From a virus: DNA of 20,234 bases. Position 1 is the first letter of the stretch; every line of letters starts with the position of its first letter. Location of the stretch: positions 1 through 20,234 of IMG/VR virus record IMGVR_UViG_3300044948_000072, one strand, 5' to 3'. The notes under the pieces were generated by a model. That model made no database searches and was not told where the DNA came from. It saw only the letters and a list, made by a program, of their open reading frames with translations. Shown here in pieces: positions 4,923-20,234 of the stretch. The translations under genes were made by a program, and so were the position numbers.

Positions 4923-5595
4923 AATTTAATACTGAACTTGCGCCAAATCTTAGTTTGCAGTCTGATAGTTTCTTACCACAAACGTCTAATAGGGGGTCTG
5001 TTGTTGGTGTACCTACACTAGTAAACATTCTGTTCTCGTGTGCTGAAGGTAGATAGTTACAATTAGCGTCTTTATACCTCCACTGACAAATATTTTGAAT
5101 AATTAGTCTACGAGGTAATTTAACGGAACTAACATCAAGAGCAGATACTAAGTCATAAACTACAGTAGTATTAGTTTCTACTACCTTACGATCAATAAAG
5201 TACACTTCTTTAGGAAACTGAGCCTCAGGGTCAGCTTCTAGGTTACCTTCTTCAAAGTTTACTGCATCTATGTATTTTAACATAGTGCGAATTCGAGTAA
5301 CTTTTAATCCTAATAAGTCTTGATATAATCTATTATACTCACTTATCAATCCACCTAAGTTAGCTATTGTTAGTTTAGGGGTTGCTAGTTGACCAGCACC
5401 ATCCCACTCAAAACCTTTCATCTCAAATGGGTAGGCAATATAGGTTTCAGAATCAAAAACTAAACTATTACCCAACTCATTAGTGTCCGAGAAAAAGTTT
5501 AACACCTCAGAACCTCCTACGGTAGACAAGTCCGCACTAAATAAATCTATAATCTTACTAGGAGAGGATTTTCTTAATTCTGTTAATATACTCAT
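4888..5595 (-). CDS. L: Minor tail protein L (Fe-S cluster tail-tip protein)
   Basis: A 235-residue protein with the gpL layout. The N-terminal two thirds form the predicted structural domain (PFEMKGFEWDGAGQLATPKL, TIANLGGLIS, VYFIDRK). The C-terminal third has four cysteines, 170, 179, 206 and 213, in NICQWRYKDANC and DVCGKKLSDCKLRFG. Lambda gpL binds an iron-sulfur cluster through four equivalent cysteines, and this spacing closely matches that pattern, so a [4Fe-4S]-type cluster is expected here. gpL sits in the tail tip between M and the J/I complex. The start overlaps the M stop by ATGA; the 3' end overlaps the start of K. The protein ends in FGAFPG-like YGAFPGAGLFS, close to the family's usual end, so it looks complete. 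Confidence 0.93.
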   Translation of the reverse strand: MSILTELRKSSPSKIIDLFSADLSTVGGSEVLNFFSDTNELGNSLVFDSETYIAYPFEMKGFEWDGAGQLATPKLTIANLGGLISEYNRLYQDLLGLKVTRIRTMLKYIDAVNFEEGNLEADPEAQFPKEVYFIDRKVVETNTTVVYDLVSALDVSSVKLPRRLIIQNICQWRYKDANCNYLPSAHENRMFTSVGTPTTDPLLDVCGKKLSDCKLRFGASSVLNYGAFPGAGLFS

Positions 5596-14009: not shown

Positions 14010-15542
14010 CTATACTATTACCGTTCTCATCCTAGACTTAGTTAGTTGTGCTGCTATTTCTCTTACTGACCTATCTATTAAAGCTACAGGACTCTTATCT
14101 ATGCTACCTTGGTCACCCCCTGGTTCAAAAGTTGCATAAGGATACTTCATGTAGCTTAAAAAAGCAGTTAGTGCGTTTTGTCTACTATCAAACTGCACAG
14201 AGTTTAATTTAACTGACTCTGCAAATCTACCAGTTTGATAAGTTAGCGCCGGAGGCGCCATATTCTTACGTATTACTTCCTGAAGCCGTGCGGATAGAAG
14301 ACCCTGTAGATTTACTACTGACTGGAAAGCTCCTGAAGTTGAGCGAAGTCTACTAGTATTTTTTGCTTTAACTATTAGTGAAGACTGGTTATTTATTCTA
14401 TTGGAAGCAGTATTTGTATTTAATTTATGAGATACTTGTTTTGTGACCCTAGATATAGTATTAGTACTTTTAGTATTTTTGCTGCCTAGTATAGTATCTA
14501 CTATATGGTCAGTTATTTGTTCTCTGAATGACTTAGAACCGTGTAGATCTATAGTACCTGTATAATCCTTACCTAGTTTTTTATTATTGCGAATAGTAGA
14601 AAATAGAGATTCCATTACTAATCGTTTAAACTCATTAGTAATTCTAGACTCTGAATCTCCACCTTGATTTCTAGGAGAGGATTCTATAAATACTGTTACT
14701 GCTCCTCTACGCTTTTTTATATCAAATTCTGTTTTTTCTACTGTGAAGTTGTGCTTAACTACAGTTTCTTTTGCTTTTGATATTGCAGCTTTTTGTATGC
14801 CAGTAACTAGTTTCTTGATTTCTGCTTCTGTTAGTGTTTTTCCTGGTTTATTTAATTGAGGTATCTGGGCTATGGTATCCCTTACTAATCTATCTAGTAA
14901 ATCTTTATTAGAGGCGATTAATTCTATTTTCTTATAAGCAACCGGTATATTATGTCCTACGTCAAAACCTAGATCAAGTTCCTTGCTATATAGCTTGGCA
15001 TGTAGGGCCTGTGCTTCTTTACCCCCATTCTTTAAAATAGATAGTATAGTTTTGAATTCTTTTGGTTGGCTAAATATAGCCTCACCTACTCCGGATAACC
15101 TTATAAATTCTTCCTTAATACTATTATTATCTTTTACATAATTAAGTATACTAGTATCTCTATCTAGTAGGTTTATTGAACTAATAAAAGATCTAACTTG
15201 ATCAAATGAATCAAAAGTTAATATATGGCCCTTTTCACCAGTACTACTTATAGTCCTATGAGGTACTCTGCCAGATCTATGCTTCCTAGTTTTCCTATAC
15301 GCGGCTAATATTGCGTATACTGCACTTTTATCTTTAGTTGCTAATTTATCTATAGATTGTGGAGCTAAAGACTTTAGTAGCTCTTCACTTATTACTAGTA
15401 CATGTACTGTTTTGTTTAAATTAGTTCTTAGATCGGAAGTAGTTGTTCTCTCTTTACTACCAACTACCTTGTTACCTAGCTCATTAATAGGTATTGCTGC
15501 TGTAATCTCATCTAATAATTCACCAAGAGCTTTCTTACTCAT
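14010..15542 (-). CDS. Large virion/neck protein in the lambda Z (tail completion) position
   Basis: A 510-residue protein between the head-tail connector and the tail terminator, where lambda has gpZ (about 192 residues). The C-terminal ~100 residues (LLSARLQEVIRKNMAPP, LTYQTGRFAESVKL, LSYMKYPYATFEPGG, LIDRSVREIAAQL, RMRTVIV) have the look of tail-completion/neck proteins: an N-terminal helix, then TGRF and a Tyr/Pro-rich segment. The preceding ~400 residues are basic, helix-rich and not recognised; they contain FDVGHNIPVAYKKIELI (about 194-210) and a Ser/Thr/Asn/Lys-rich linker at about 355-405. The function (neck or tail completion) is inferred from position. The start overlaps the connector stop (TAATG). 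Alternative: a large structural protein unrelated to gpZ whose end merely resembles the fold. Confidence 0.6.
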   Translation of the reverse strand: MSKKALGELLDEITAAIPINELGNKVVGSKERTTTSDLRTNLNKTVHVLVISEELLKSLAPQSIDKLATKDKSAVYAILAAYRKTRKHRSGRVPHRTISSTGEKGHILTFDSFDQVRSFISSINLLDRDTSILNYVKDNNSIKEEFIRLSGVGEAIFSQPKEFKTILSILKNGGKEAQALHAKLYSKELDLGFDVGHNIPVAYKKIELIASNKDLLDRLVRDTIAQIPQLNKPGKTLTEAEIKKLVTGIQKAAISKAKETVVKHNFTVEKTEFDIKKRRGAVTVFIESSPRNQGGDSESRITNEFKRLVMESLFSTIRNNKKLGKDYTGTIDLHGSKSFREQITDHIVDTILGSKNTKSTNTISRVTKQVSHKLNTNTASNRINNQSSLIVKAKNTSRLRSTSGAFQSVVNLQGLLSARLQEVIRKNMAPPALTYQTGRFAESVKLNSVQFDSRQNALTAFLSYMKYPYATFEPGGDQGSIDKSPVALIDRSVREIAAQLTKSRMRTVIV

Positions 15543-16111
15543 TATCTAATAACCCTATATAAATCTAGGACACGCTTAATGTGATGAGGGAAATCAGAAC
15601 TACGAATGTACTCAATACTAACAGAACCTTGGGTTTTTCTAGGAGATGCTTCACGCTTCATATAGTATTCTAGTAAATCTAGAGCTGCTATATACAAGTC
15701 ACCTGGAAGTACTGAGTAACCAGCTCTATATGTAATCTTGAAGTAGTTTGGATAATTAATATCAGCAGCACCAAATATGACTAGTCTATCATTTTGTCTA
15801 TCAATTAGATAATCAGTATACTCTGCTAGTGGTATATATGTTTGACCACTGTCTTCTGAATAAGCAACCTCTTCTACACTAAGTATAGGAAATTCCTCTG
15901 TATATAGATAGTCATCTCCTCCATTATAATATTGTACAATATCTAAAAATTCCTCAGTATCAGCATCATAGCTATCAATGAAACTTCTAGTACAATAATT
16001 TTTAATTAACTGACTAATATAAGGTATTAATAGCTCAATGCGCTCATCTTGATCTGTACTGCTAATATTTGTATAGAGCTTATAATCGTCGACTGTAATT
16101 AGGTTTCTCAT
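15542..16111 (-). CDS. Head-tail connector / adaptor protein (HK97 gp6 / SPP1 gp15 type)
   Basis: A 189-residue protein starting MRNLITVDDYKLYTNI, followed by a helix-rich N-terminal segment DERIELLIPYISQLIKNYC, which is the usual beginning of the gp6/gp15 adaptor family that forms a ring under the portal. A middle beta-rich insertion (about 50-115) holds EEFPILSVEEVAYSEDSGQTY and DRQNDRLVIFGAA, and the C-terminus returns to helix (GDLYIAALDLLEYYMKR ... HIKRVLDLYRVIR). The pattern 'ITYRAGYSVLPGDLYIAALDL' in shortened form (TYRAGY, then LP.DL..A...L) is characteristic of these adaptors. The ATG overlaps the upstream stop (ATGA) and has a good Shine-Dalgarno (AGGTGG). It links the DNA-filled head to the tail proteins encoded just downstream. 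Confidence 0.83.
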   Translation of the reverse strand: MRNLITVDDYKLYTNISSTDQDERIELLIPYISQLIKNYCTRSFIDSYDADTEEFLDIVQYYNGGDDYLYTEEFPILSVEEVAYSEDSGQTYIPLAEYTDYLIDRQNDRLVIFGAADINYPNYFKITYRAGYSVLPGDLYIAALDLLEYYMKREASPRKTQGSVSIEYIRSSDFPHHIKRVLDLYRVIR

Positions 16112-16434
16112 TTATTCACCACCTGGATTTTTACACTTCTATCATCTTCTCTACCTAAAGATGTTACAATAGATACTACTACTATGTACTCTTTCCCAAC
16201 TAAACCACCATCTAACCAGAATAGTACTGAAGTATTACTATCTGATATAGTTGAAGATACTACTACTAACTCAGCTGGTTTGCTAGATACTACTGTGGCT
16301 GATACTATAGTTTCCGAATCTAATACTTGTAAATAATCTGTAGTAGCTCCAGGTCTATTATTTGTTTTTGATGCGAAATCCATTAAGTAGTCTAACTTAG
16401 CTTCTGGATCTTTCTGAAGTTTTTTTATTGCCAT
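16108..16434 (-). CDS. Small Ig-like phage structural protein (LDY...WLDGG family)
   Basis: A 108-residue protein. It shows a recurring phage pattern: an N-terminal KDPEAKLDYLMDFAS, a segment ETIVSATVVS, then VLFWLDGGLVGKEYIVVVSI followed by TSLGREDDRSVKIQV. This arrangement (D-x-LDY, then WL-GG-x-G-x-x-Y, then T-x-GR) is typical of small proteins encoded near head-tail connector genes in many siphophages; I know of no firm role, and annotations vary between head protein and hypothetical. The predicted fold is an all-beta, Ig-like sandwich. The start has AGGAG overlapping the stop of the tryptophan-repeat miniprotein, and the stop overlaps the connector start, so it belongs to a tightly coupled cluster. 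One difference from common relatives is TNNRPGATTDYLQVL where a Trp-Leu pair usually lies. Confidence 0.7.
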   Translation of the reverse strand: MAIKKLQKDPEAKLDYLMDFASKTNNRPGATTDYLQVLDSETIVSATVVSSKPAELVVVSSTISDSNTSVLFWLDGGLVGKEYIVVVSIVTSLGREDDRSVKIQVVNK

Positions 16435-16442
16435 ATGTACTC

Positions 16443-16550
16443 CTATCTGTGGGTGACCACTATTATCCTACTTAGAGGAACTCTTCTGAATGAAACTACT
16501 ATATATTTCCAAGAAGAACCCCAGGATTTACCCCAGGAGTTTTTCCACAT
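16443..16550 (-). CDS. Tryptophan-repeat miniprotein (35 residues, SW every fourth position)
   Basis: A short frame fills the apparent gap between two structural genes. Its ATG overlaps the stop of the 178-residue gene (TAATG), and its TAG overlaps the AGGAG of the next gene, so it is coupled on both sides. The N-terminal half reads MWKNSWGKSWGSSWK, with Trp at 2, 6, 10 and 14, each of the last three preceded by Ser. The C-terminal half is hydrophobic and basic (YIVVSFRR, VPLSRIIVV, THR) and ends in Arg. Comparable small WGxSWG-rich reading frames occur beside virion genes in other phages (from memory); no function is known to me. The TCC TGG GGT repeats explain a direct DNA repeat here. The coding call rests on coupling, repeat pattern and complete use of the gap. 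Confidence 0.72.
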   Translation of the reverse strand: MWKNSWGKSWGSSWKYIVVSFRRVPLSRIIVVTHR

Positions 16551-17086
16551 TATATAGGCCCCCAAGGATTAAGTTCAGTACCTATTCCGGTAACTTCTAT
16601 ATTATTAACTTTTTGTATATCTGCATGTATTGGTGTAACTTGTGCAGCAGCTAATACTGCAGCAGCGTTTTCATTAGCAGTAGGGGCAGGTGTTCCAGTA
16701 GTAGATAAAGCCTGAGTCATTTGCGAAACTCTAGACTGTATTATTGTAGTTGCCATGGGCCAAGGTATAAAAAATGGTAGGTTTGGATCTGTTGGATAAA
16801 AATTACCATCTATTACTACTTGTACATTACCTACATCTGGAGGAACTCCTCTCCAACCTAAATCATTTCTAATAAAGACATATGCCCCTAGAAAAGTTCC
16901 GCCACCTAAGGAGTCTCCACCAGCCGTGGAAAAGGCTGGTGGATACTTTAAATTATCTCCTTGAATAGTCCAATCTACCCACTCAGAGTACAACTCCTGA
17001 GCAGTAAACTGGAATACTCCACCTACTACAGCAAGCTGGTCACCTTCAATACTCAAAGTTGGTCCATCAAAGATGAACTTGCTCAC
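16550..17086 (-). CDS. Phage virion protein, YSEWVDW/GGD family (unassigned role; probable head/neck appendage)
   Basis: A 178-residue protein starting at GTG with AGGAG six bases upstream, overlapping the previous stop. The first ~100 residues hold FIFDGPTLSIEG, then LYSEWVDWTIQGDNLKYPPAF, GGDSLGGG, YVFIRNDLGWRG and VVIDGNFYPTDPNLPFF: a beta-rich module seen in phage structural genes near fibre and connector genes (recognised from memory). The rest is an Ala/Thr-rich segment (STTGTPAPTANENAAAVLAAAQ) that may be a short helical or linker stalk, ending in HADIQKVNNIEVTGIGTELNPWGP, resembling the end of other phage fibre-like proteins. It has an N-terminal motif in common with the next gene upstream. 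I infer a virion appendage or decoration role; it is unproven. Confidence 0.6.
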   Translation of the reverse strand: MSKFIFDGPTLSIEGDQLAVVGGVFQFTAQELYSEWVDWTIQGDNLKYPPAFSTAGGDSLGGGTFLGAYVFIRNDLGWRGVPPDVGNVQVVIDGNFYPTDPNLPFFIPWPMATTIIQSRVSQMTQALSTTGTPAPTANENAAAVLAAAQVTPIHADIQKVNNIEVTGIGTELNPWGPI

Positions 17087-17095
17087 AATATCTCC

Positions 17096-18478
17096 TTATG
17101 CGTATACGCGGTCGGTTTCAGCAACCAATGATAGACTAATACCTTTAGTACGTGATAGAGTACCACTAGCAACAGCGAACTTACCAGTACCTGGCTTAAT
17201 ACCGATTAGAGTAACTGCTCTATCAGTACCTCCTGCAAATCCACCCTGTACATTACCATCATAATCGTAATCAAAGTCAATACTACCGGCAGATATAGTT
17301 CCAGTAATTGGAGTACCAGCAGCATTATTAACTGTAATAGCCCCAGTCTCACCATAGTCATTACCGGCACCAGGTGGTGTAGTAAACATTAAGCGATAGC
17401 TGGATCCAGCACCTACTAGTACTGAATTGAAAGACATTGTACCTGCTGCTGTATATGGGTTAGTACGTAGAGTATTAGAATCATCGTAGAACTCAATTCT
17501 ATTACTATCTGCGGATAGAACATCATCAATATAAACTGAAGGTGAAGTTACTAAAATGTCACCAACGAAGCGTAGTAACTCATCTTGGATTTTACCAATT
17601 TTAGTACCTGCTGTTCCACTAGTATTAATATCAGTACCTTGGCGCAATAGATATTGAACCTTAGCGTAAATCTGCTCTAAAGTACCACCATTGCCTTCGA
17701 TAATAATCTTGAAGTTTCTTGAAGCCCCTGCAATAGTACGAGTTTGATTAACTGTATAGTAGGCAACTGTAATACCGTTATAAGGTGCACCAGTCATAGC
17801 TGTATCAGCTGTAGCTTGTACATCACCTAATAATCCAGTAATCTTTAAGTCATCCTCATTAGATACTAGAAAGTTCTGTTTATTAGCCCCGGTAGCAGTA
17901 GCACCGGTATCTGCTAGAATAGAAGATTTGAACTTTTTTCCATACTCACGTGCGAATGTCTTTGCATAAGTACGTTTATCAAAGTTACCATGAGTAGCAT
18001 CACCAAATACTTTAATACCAACGTTGAATTGATCAGTAAAGGGGAAGTTAGTTGGTGCATCTGTTGGTGCTAGATGATAATATGGTTGTACAGTACTAGC
18101 CGGAGTAATACTACCAAGACCTACGAAACCTGAATACTGCTGCAATAGTACTCCAGCAGCTGAATACTCTGACCAACCACCATCTCGCAGCATGTTACGC
18201 GTTGCATCAGAATTGAAAGTCCATCCAGAGAAGGTTGCACCATCTGTACCAATCTGGAACTGACCAGACAGCGCATCAATGGCGTAGAATGGAAACGGAC
18301 TATCTTGATAAGTTGGGGTTGCCCATAAGTCAACAAAGAAGGAGTAAAGTGCCTGCCAAGTGACACCATCCTTGGCCACTAAATCCCCAGCTACATTCAA
18401 TGTTATTACACGATTTGGTTCATCAATACTAACTTCTGTTCCTACAGCTAGTAATGTTTTTGAAGTAATTTTTGCCAT
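17096..18478 (-). CDS. Phage virion structural protein, GGWSEY family (probable fibre/decoration protein)
   Basis: A 460-residue protein. The N-terminal module includes DGVTWQALYSFFVDLW (about 37-52), PFPFYAIDALSGQFQIG, ATRNMLRDGGWSEYSAAG and YSGFVGLGSI, then YYHLAPTDAPTNFPFTDQFN and a charged segment NFDKRTYAKTFAREYGKKFK. The middle has NEDDLKITGLLGD, and the C-terminus is beta-rich: MFTTPPGAGNDYGETGAITV, IDFDYDYDGNVQGG, ending LSLVAETDRVYA. I recognise this as a recurring phage structural family; the exact role is not established to my knowledge. Major capsid is unlikely, because no HK97-fold features are visible. Position upstream of the connector and beside a beta-helix protein suggests head or neck fibres. 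ATG is preceded by AAGGAA; a short gap separates it from the upstream fibre gene. Confidence 0.62.
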   Translation of the reverse strand: MAKITSKTLLAVGTEVSIDEPNRVITLNVAGDLVAKDGVTWQALYSFFVDLWATPTYQDSPFPFYAIDALSGQFQIGTDGATFSGWTFNSDATRNMLRDGGWSEYSAAGVLLQQYSGFVGLGSITPASTVQPYYHLAPTDAPTNFPFTDQFNVGIKVFGDATHGNFDKRTYAKTFAREYGKKFKSSILADTGATATGANKQNFLVSNEDDLKITGLLGDVQATADTAMTGAPYNGITVAYYTVNQTRTIAGASRNFKIIIEGNGGTLEQIYAKVQYLLRQGTDINTSGTAGTKIGKIQDELLRFVGDILVTSPSVYIDDVLSADSNRIEFYDDSNTLRTNPYTAAGTMSFNSVLVGAGSSYRLMFTTPPGAGNDYGETGAITVNNAAGTPITGTISAGSIDFDYDYDGNVQGGFAGGTDRAVTLIGIKPGTGKFAVASGTLSRTKGISLSLVAETDRVYA

Positions 18479-18486
18479 ATATTTCC

Positions 18487-20234
18487 TTAAATATAGTTAC
18501 GATCTTGGATGAGGGAAACAGGAATAGTCGAACTGGTCAGCCCTAGCGTCAGATTGCGAATGAATTGCACCTGATACCCCGGCTTAATGAATCCCACATC
18601 AATCGTGGGCGTGCCTGCGTAGGCATAGGCGTAGGAAGTCCCTACGTTCTGATCAACCTGATCAATGATGGTGTTTGTGCCAGCGGTCAGAATCACAATG
18701 TCGCAACCTGTAGGCAGACCAGTGAAAGTCACCGTAGTCATGTCATCAGGATAGGTAGCCGTTTGGTCTACCGTGGTCCAGAGGTACAGACCTTGGATGA
18801 AGCTATTGAATGATGGGCCGAAAGCGAAGGACGTATTGACCAACACAAGATTTGCTCTCGCTTGGCTATCCGAATCCCTGACAATGTTAGTGGCTGTTGT
18901 CCAATTTCCAACAACCTGATCCACTACACATAACCCACTAGCGCCAGTATCAAAGTCTGCAAGTATCCGAGCAGTGCCACCCCCGGCAATGTGGCGAACA
19001 GTTTCACCAACTACGAAGTTATTGGTTTGGCTTTGGTAAATAAAGAACTGACGTGCAGTAATCCGAACCTTCAGGTTGAAACCCACAGTAGCCGATACCG
19101 TGATGCCAGCAAGATTTGCAGGGGTGGCTTCAATCCAACCACCATAACCCGTTCCTGTATCAACTTGAACTTCAATCAGTATGGCTTGCGGAATATCCGC
19201 ATTCGTAATGCCCGAATTAAGCTGTTCGCAATAGACCTTGGGCAGAATTGACCTAAAGCCACTCACCCCATAAATCTTATGCGGCCAAGTGTAAGTTACA
19301 GAGTCCCCTGCTTGCTGAAGATATAGCCTGCCGGTATTGGAGAAGGCAGCTAGACCAGTGAGTTCATAAGGCTTGACGGCTTGAGTAGAGGCAGTAAATA
19401 CCAGACCTAACGCACCCGTAGTCGCAGTGTGATACATCTCGGCAAAGTGAGTGTCGAACACGCCTAAGCCGCTTTGCGTTAAACCATCTGTAGTGCTACC
19501 AATATTCCAAAGAGGCGTAGTCGCCGCCCCATCTGGTTTAGACGAGCTACCACCACCCACTCCCTTGAATATCATGCCATTGTTATAGGTATATAAGGCA
19601 GCACTTCCGAATTCAGTTCTTACATTTTCCAAAATTGTATCGCTGGCGGTATTCAACGCATAAACAACTGGATTGCTAGCCCCTCTCACCATATTGCCAT
19701 CTATTTGAATATTCTTAAAACGGTTTCTGTTTGAGTCAAACTGAATATCTATATTAGCAGATGTGCCACTGAAAAACCCAGTGCCTAATTTCAGATCAAT
19801 ATTACGAATATAGTTATCTGAACTTGAAGCCGTTAAATTAAAGGCTGCCTGAACAGCACCACCCCATCCAGATTGTGTTACGTTTTCTAATACATTTCTA
19901 TTTGAGGATGTAGTAAATACAAAGAATGGTGTTGCAACAGCGGTCCAATACAGAATGTTTTCCTTGCTTGGTACAAAGTCAGGATCAGTGCCAACGCACC
20001 ATATATTCCACACCAAGTTAGAATTTCCGGTAAGGATTATTCCTTGGTTGCGAGTTTCACCTCCACTCGTATAACCCCTAGAACCCGCATAATTCATACC
20101 AATATCCGGAGTGACTGCGGCAGCAGCAGTTTCTTGCGTAAATACAGGAGTTGAAGTGCCTGTTACAAATACACCTTCATAAGCAATAACGTCAGCCGAT
20201 CTATTCATTCGTATAACTAAATCATGGCTTGTTG
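18487..20234 (-). CDS. Beta-helix fibre-like virion protein (N-terminus beyond right edge)
   Basis: The frame remains open from an in-frame ATG at 20208 to the right edge, and that ATG has no Shine-Dalgarno, so the real start is probably outside the window; at least 582 codons are present. Counting from that ATG, residues ~100-200 form four rungs about 29 residues apart (SSNRNVLENV, SSDNYIRNID, SNRNRFKNIQ, ASDTILENVR), a right-handed parallel beta-helix pattern common in phage tailspikes and fibres. Later parts include a small beta domain (VVGETVRHIAGGGTARI) and a C-terminus GFIKPGYQVQFIRNL ... IPVSLIQDRNYI, resembling phage fibre/decoration ends. No catalytic site of a polysaccharide lyase or hydrolase is identifiable by eye. 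Much of the gene has clearly higher GC (about 50% in several lines) than the rest. Probable surface-binding fibre; the attachment site is unknown. Confidence 0.68.
   Translation of the reverse strand, partial: TSHDLVIRMNRSADVIAYEGVFVTGTSTPVFTQETAAAAVTPDIGMNYAGSRGYTSGGETRNQGIILTGNSNLVWNIWCVGTDPDFVPSKENILYWTAVATPFFVFTTSSNRNVLENVTQSGWGGAVQAAFNLTASSSDNYIRNIDLKLGTGFFSGTSANIDIQFDSNRNRFKNIQIDGNMVRGASNPVVYALNTASDTILENVRTEFGSAALYTYNNGMIFKGVGGGSSSKPDGAATTPLWNIGSTTDGLTQSGLGVFDTHFAEMYHTATTGALGLVFTASTQAVKPYELTGLAAFSNTGRLYLQQAGDSVTYTWPHKIYGVSGFRSILPKVYCEQLNSGITNADIPQAILIEVQVDTGTGYGGWIEATPANLAGITVSATVGFNLKVRITARQFFIYQSQTNNFVVGETVRHIAGGGTARILADFDTGASGLCVVDQVVGNWTTATNIVRDSDSQARANLVLVNTSFAFGPSFNSFIQGLYLWTTVDQTATYPDDMTTVTFTGLPTGCDIVILTAGTNTIIDQVDQNVGTSYAYAYAGTPTIDVGFIKPGYQVQFIRNLTLGLTSSTIPVSLIQDRNYI

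Follow-up and report, generated by a model that had tools for sequence, protein, structure and literature searches.

A 35-residue tryptophan-leader reading frame beside a Gp77-like gene, and its counterparts in other phages

The reading frame and its neighbours

The DNA analyzed here, hereafter the window, is a 20,234-base virus record from IMG/VR. Its minus strand carries a run of genes (Table 1) which, in the order of transcription, specify proteins of 573, 460 and 178 residues, the product of a 35-residue ORF, a 108-residue Gp77-like protein, a head completion protein, a T5 p143-like tail completion protein and a tail terminator, followed by the major tail protein and a tail assembly chaperone. 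The roles of the neighbours of the 35-residue ORF are already known in kind, and since they are head and tail completion and tail genes the ORF can be placed in the connector region of a phage with a long tail. Profile searches with the 573- and 460-residue proteins gave no matches, while a fold search with the 178-residue protein returned no PDB match and, from BFVD, only unnamed phage proteins. The gene downstream of the ORF belongs to the family of podophage GP4 Gp77 (PF23148), whose profile led to one solved relative, PDB 8jou chain D (E 5e-24). The passage of PMC13243795 that cites Zheng et al. (2023) presents another 8jou chain as the fibril linking the adhesin and the tail nozzle collar.

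Table 1. Features at and around the 35-residue ORF of the window
Feature	Position	Strand	Evidence or remark
T5 p143-like tail completion protein	14010..15542	minus	PF25747
Head completion / head-tail adaptor protein, 189 aa	15542..16111	minus	PF24163, phrog_442
3-kb block identical between phages	15705..18702	minus	Adjoining stretches 73–90% identical
Gp77-like gene, 108 aa, fibre-tail adaptor family PF23148	16108..16434	minus	56.4 bits, cut-off 27
AGGAG, Shine-Dalgarno of Gp77-like gene, overlapping stop of 35-aa ORF	16440..16444	minus	Sequence
35-aa Trp-leader ORF	16443..16550	minus	ATG 16550–16548, stop TAG 16445–16443; 35 aa plus stop
Hydrophobic/basic tail KYIVVSFRRVPLSRIIVVTHR	16446..16508	minus	Possible degenerate Arg repeat, not significant
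Trp leader MWKNSWGKSWGSSW	16509..16550	minus	W2, W6, W10, W14
Preceding gene, 178 aa, PWGP-tailed	16550..17086	minus	Confident N-terminal domain; ends NPWGPI, then stop; TAATG overlap with 35-aa ORF
C-terminal tail of 178-aa protein, IHADIQKVNNIEVTGIGTELNPWGPI	16553..16630	minus	V..V.G.G....PWGP signature
TGGGGG (WG codons of PWGP), probable ribosome-binding element of 35-aa ORF	16559..16564	minus	Gly codon starts 11 nt before ATG

The translation of the ORF reads MWKNSWGKSWGSSWKYIVVSFRRVPLSRIIVVTHR. Its start lies at +2 from the first base of the preceding gene's stop, and at the other end its TAG shares bases with the AGGAG that precedes the ATG at 16434. The complete frame reported in the first-pass annotation, with start-stop coupling on one side and a stop/Shine-Dalgarno overlap on the other, was thus confirmed, and the claim that its tryptophan spacing is not random is borne out as well. 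All six frames of the window contain a single run of four Trp residues at period four, the one in this ORF, and 200 first-order Markov sequences of window length contained none; three-Trp runs have an expectation of 0.04 per window. The same annotation had proposed looking for conserved Trp spacing in related phages, and such spacing was found: all four leader Trp columns are invariant across 16 aligned short members of the class described below.

The 35-mer showed no Pfam or PHROG profile match at E 0.1 and no PDB match, and its AlphaFold model is of low confidence (pLDDT 60). Against the phage collection neither the flank (blastn) nor the 35-mer (tblastn) gave a match.

A gene pair of PWGP tail and tryptophan leader

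The pair, as defined in this work, consists of an ORF ending in V..V.G.G....PWGP plus zero to two residues and a following ORF whose start codon lies at −1 to +6 from the first base of the preceding stop, and which has three or more Trp among residues 1–30 at a spacing of four; in the majority (61%) the WGP glycine codon that precedes the start is GGG. In the window the preceding ORF ends in DIQKVNNIEVTGIGTELNPWGPI followed by the stop, with the start at +2, Trp at W2/W6/W10/W14 and the hexamer TGGGGG. The tail signature there is VN..-V-G-G-T..NPWGP, the class form being VN..-V.G.G....[DNT][PE]WGP.

An initial DNA pattern for WGxSWGxxW retrieved mostly papain-like proteases and wrong-frame matches, a fault cured by adding the PWGP codons. 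Patterns that required PWGP and then two WG repeats recovered at least about 190 stretches from IMG/VR, and from them at least 139 distinct pairs were obtained, each made up of an ORF with a PWGP end and a Trp-leader ORF coupled to it. Because both halves had been demanded, the scan was repeated with the tail alone. The tail was then found at 77 distinct places, 75 of them C-terminal, and a Trp-leader ORF (here one with three or more Trp among residues 1–30) lay directly after 71 of the 75; the four exceptions comprise one contig end, one mixed Trp/Phe leader and two cases without a leader. Conversely, in three PWGP-less relatives of the N-terminal domain of the 178-residue protein (L008, L009 and L010) the next ORF has no leader, a small but consistent contrast. 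A search for prophages in GTDB genomes yielded 29 stretches, mostly chance matches, with three true pairs (L397, L407 and L418).

Ten other upstream and leader-type proteins had no PHROGs match at 0.01. In the literature open without subscription the papers in which the leader strings occurred all dealt with papain-type proteases or antigens, none with phages, and DPWGP was not found there in the sense of a tail. The two-gene arrangement is apparently both widespread and undescribed.

In the tail-only sample successive Trp residues are four apart in 147 of 183 intervals, the usual form of the leader being MASAWGxSWGxSWGxSWG, with Trp mostly at every fourth residue. Counted from the stop's first base, the start offsets are chiefly +3 (61 pairs), −1 (38) and +2 (26), together 125 of the 139 pairs listed. 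Other Trp-leader ORFs (L217, L171, L089, L100 and more than 130 others from IMG/VR, and the deposited ctUtU524, MW202621) resemble that of the window in the PWGP-type tail before them, the coupled start and the Trp at every fourth residue; they differ among themselves in the sequence after the leader, of which the window has almost none. As judged from these comparisons, otherwise unrelated proteins share the Trp repeat as a generic tag at the N-terminus, and it is paired with the PWGP tail of the preceding gene.

A chance open frame without function would agree with the fact that the near copies in the window's lineage are all identical. It is hardly credible, given that no random window held the Trp run and that the pair recurs in other phages, on about 140 distinct contigs and also in a sample chosen without regard to the ORF. 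We regard it as nearly certain that the 35-residue ORF is a real gene of the Trp-leader class. The hidden miniprotein of the first-pass annotation therefore stands as a coupled gene among structural genes which evades annotation; it is not a one-off but the shortest member found in a common class whose complete members span 35 to 913 residues. We infer, strongly in the first case, that the ORF is translated and that its product is located in the virion.

The tail and the leader seem to be under selection in different ways. Among the 139 pairs listed, the WGP glycine codon, 8–12 nt upstream of the start, is GGG in 85, versus 16% of the other Gly codons in the same proteins, and a GGAG/GAGG-type site is present in only eight. 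The sequence GGGGG can pair with CCUCC of 16S rRNA, one G-U pair included. Since the WGP glycine codon is mostly GGG, the PWGP tail probably doubles as the ribosome site of the leader gene. The Gly codons of the leader have no such preference (GGG in 29 of 198). The second Trp position of the leader (n = 61) has Trp in 46 cases, Phe in nine and other residues in six, so that Phe makes up nine of the 15 replacements, a change which needs two base substitutions. Replacement mainly by Phe, together with the lack of GGG bias, argues that selection acts on the leader as protein.

Several variants were seen. Four stretches (L326, L362, L372 and L397) have a leader of mixed spacing, for example SSWDAGSWEPDAWDEGAW, after a PWGP tail. 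In podophage ctjLE16 (MW202627, L420 5082–5252) the tail signature occurs without PWGP (VVKINDVDVIGAGTSGDKWRA) and the next ORF, of 56 residues, begins with a Phe leader, AFDSDAFDTDAFDTDAFD, and is basic at its end; this suggests a second aromatic leader type, of period five. In a Rhizobium phage (L033) the gene before Gp77 starts with FQSDAFQNDAFQ. In L171, L254, L209 and L276 the Trp leader is followed by a repeat K.[WF].G..W (for example LKVWTGSAWEAKQVKRWNGSAWI), another kind of cargo.

Short forms, an identical block and the gene before Gp77

Next in length to the window's protein are those of L217 (36 residues), L172 (38), L219 (42), L160 (43) and L186 (45). Two of them end in FLRRRRR (L217) and YSRRRRMH (L172), and the partner of the L217 protein is the closest relative of the 178-residue protein in the set (phmmer E 6e-40). 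The slot between the partner and the Gp77-like gene is variably filled. In L012, which has homologues on both sides, it is occupied by a 259-residue protein with two RTWGWF repeats; in L019–L021 a Gp77-like gene 85% identical to that of the window follows a different gene, which ends in EDRLLIVSKDERDTTFIFDTRVLYISKDNRDILIS.

The ORF also falls within a block of 3 kb which is identical between phages and which contains part of the head-completion gene, the Gp77-like gene, the ORF itself and the 178- and 460-residue genes. Its limits are the same in L210 and L422, L006 shares the right-hand limit, and all near copies of the ORF are identical over its stretch. Since the block is identical and its flanks have diverged, the ORF, its partner, the 460-residue gene and the Gp77-like gene appear to move as one cassette. 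The block appears to record a recent exchange of a neck/fibre cassette; it may also be a chimeric assembly, an artefact shared by related samples.

Genes preceding Gp77-like genes form a variable group in many phages and often end in a repeat, ExR.[IV].V, of 9–11 residues. Of 75 such genes sampled independently, at least three chained Arg units were present in 25, against 1.4 expected from shuffles. Proteins of this kind include BcepIL02 gp56, annotated as a virion structural protein, those of Itty13, Lacusarx and Microcystis phages, and the leader proteins of L167, L218 and L316; searches of the PDB with the BcepIL02 and Itty13 proteins gave nothing credible. They share with the 35-residue protein, which is not itself Gp77 and is much smaller than the proteins that usually fill the slot, both position and a basic-hydrophobic C-terminus, and L167, L218 and L316 share the Trp leader too. 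Most leader proteins are followed by a gene other than Gp77. Among 130 complete leader proteins only those three carry at least three chained 10-residue Arg units, and they are exactly the three, besides that of the window, with a Gp77-like gene next.

The window has the Gp77-like gene downstream; its ORF lacks the three or more Arg units of 9–11 residues at the C-terminus. Unlike the Arg-repeat-ended proteins its tail is too short for the test: the best unit scores 8.4 bits, there are at most two degenerate units, and the shuffle p of 0.08–0.16, though it leans the expected way, is not significant. As the test fell short we do not claim membership of the Arg-repeat group for the 35-residue protein, the basic tail of which may be a vestige of such a repeat. 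Nor is the Arg repeat obligatory, since actinobacterial phages have Gp77-like genes without an Arg-repeat neighbour. A WG-repeat start and an Arg tail are combined in one protein before Gp77 in L439.

Two further stretches (L493 and L479) have ORFs of about 37 residues consisting of the Arg repeat alone (MYRVIPIQKENRLVPISKEIRLITVHKDTRVVPVTQG) just before a Gp77-like gene. JC1 gp55, a Gp77 homologue, was detected in purified virions by mass spectrometry (PMC9144972 Table 6), while the product of the gene before it, gp54, is absent from the virion-protein table of that paper; the evidence on the occupant of the slot is therefore mixed.

Possible function of the pair

We propose, with a probability of about one half, that the 35-residue ORF is a translated minimal member of a two-gene module, its leader docking onto the partner and its tail holding the Gp77-like adaptor. 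Protein A of the module would be a variable protein with the class form of the tail, and protein B a start-coupled protein with an aromatic leader in which W-G-x-S recurs every four residues, the sequence beyond it being freely exchanged. Ribosomes finishing A would go on to translate B, using the G-run in the last codons of A as ribosome site, so that A and B would be made together. The leader of B would then dock onto the tail of A or onto assembled A, and the C-terminal end of B would hold the next component, in the window the Gp77-like fibre adaptor near the neck. With no middle domain, the B protein of the window would act as a short staple joining A to the adaptor. The pairing, the geometry of the coupling, the Trp period, the exchange of one aromatic residue for another and the place before Gp77 are directly observed; both dockings are put forward as a hypothesis. 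Since most leader proteins do not precede Gp77, the adaptor end of the model applies to few of the class.

A broader form of this proposal, which we offer tentatively, takes the PWGP tail and the period-four aromatic leader as a matched docking pair with one coupled ribosome site, that is, a widespread attachment code by which unrelated cargo may be plugged into the virion. The window would then show the bare plug, its two docking ends separated by almost nothing, and before Gp77 an Arg-repeat end would be plugged in as well.

Of the other explanations, the one that deserves most weight, though we think it unlikely, accepts the module as real and translated and lets the junction serve translation and module swapping only, the TGGGGG site and the start forming a cassette for reinitiation with no contact between the tail of A and the leader of B. 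It would account for the strong GGG bias 8–12 nt before the start, for a junction that stays constant while upstream proteins vary greatly in length and leader proteins range from 35 to 913 residues, and for the identical 3-kb block in otherwise diverged phages. A ribosome site would not, however, need conservation of about 25 residues of the tail, including Gly, Val and Asn that lie far away from that site, nor a leader conserved as protein, with Trp replaced by Phe and no codon bias. The first-pass annotation had suggested that the protein could be an aromatic-rich clamp, a membrane-active peptide or a short virion plug. Distinctly less probable is a membrane-active or nucleic-acid-binding virion peptide, a plug or lysis-type protein, as the Trp stripe and basic tail might suggest. 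The short forms of the window, L217 and L172 do pair a Trp leader with a hydrophobic-basic end, but a membrane role looks weak because the longest hydrophobic stretch in the 35-residue protein is about six residues (YIVVSF), short of membrane-spanning length. Moreover, many members of the class have long acidic or repeat-rich ends, and a constant tag on unrelated cargo fits attachment better.

The overlap of stop and start, and the fact that half of the pairs are in frame, might point to frameshifting or stop read-through, giving an A-B fusion in which the leader is an alternative C-terminus of A. This we consider very improbable, for the relative frames are mixed (among the pairs listed 71 in frame, 65 at minus one and three at plus one), as coupled-start overlaps allow, and none of 12 same-frame matches was a natural A-B fusion. 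The letters KNSWGKSWG are also found in papain-like C1A proteases, where the asparagine motif is NSWG.SWG, and the WGxSWGxxW pattern matches many phage-borne enzymes of this type. Descent from one of these can be dismissed almost entirely: the likeness is confined to the short motif, the protein has 35 residues, no Cys and no Pfam match, the leader class varies the NS part and keeps the Trp, and no relative at the position of the ORF was seen with a catalytic domain. A papain remnant was accordingly rejected; the protein lacks a catalytic Cys/His domain. Papain-like proteases with the NSWG.SWG motif were themselves found in L036, L042, L087, L104 and other stretches, two of them in frames of more than 1000 residues.

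If the pairing does reflect docking, a partner and a position could be named for many unannotated phage proteins of 35 to more than 900 residues, the exchange of neck and fibre parts between phages would be easier to explain, and the leader could supply a short, genetically encoded tag by which cargo is attached to particles. Should there be no docking, a PWGP tail followed by a coupled Trp leader still provides a simple rule for finding small phage genes which pipelines miss or start too late. The deposited phage ctUtU524 (L421 5081–5527) provides an instance of the latter. The annotated gene starts at 5114, inside the leader, so that half of the leader falls outside it; a start from the ATG at 5081, which is coupled to the stop before it, would add MSGSAWGNSWS, and the annotated start is probably too late.
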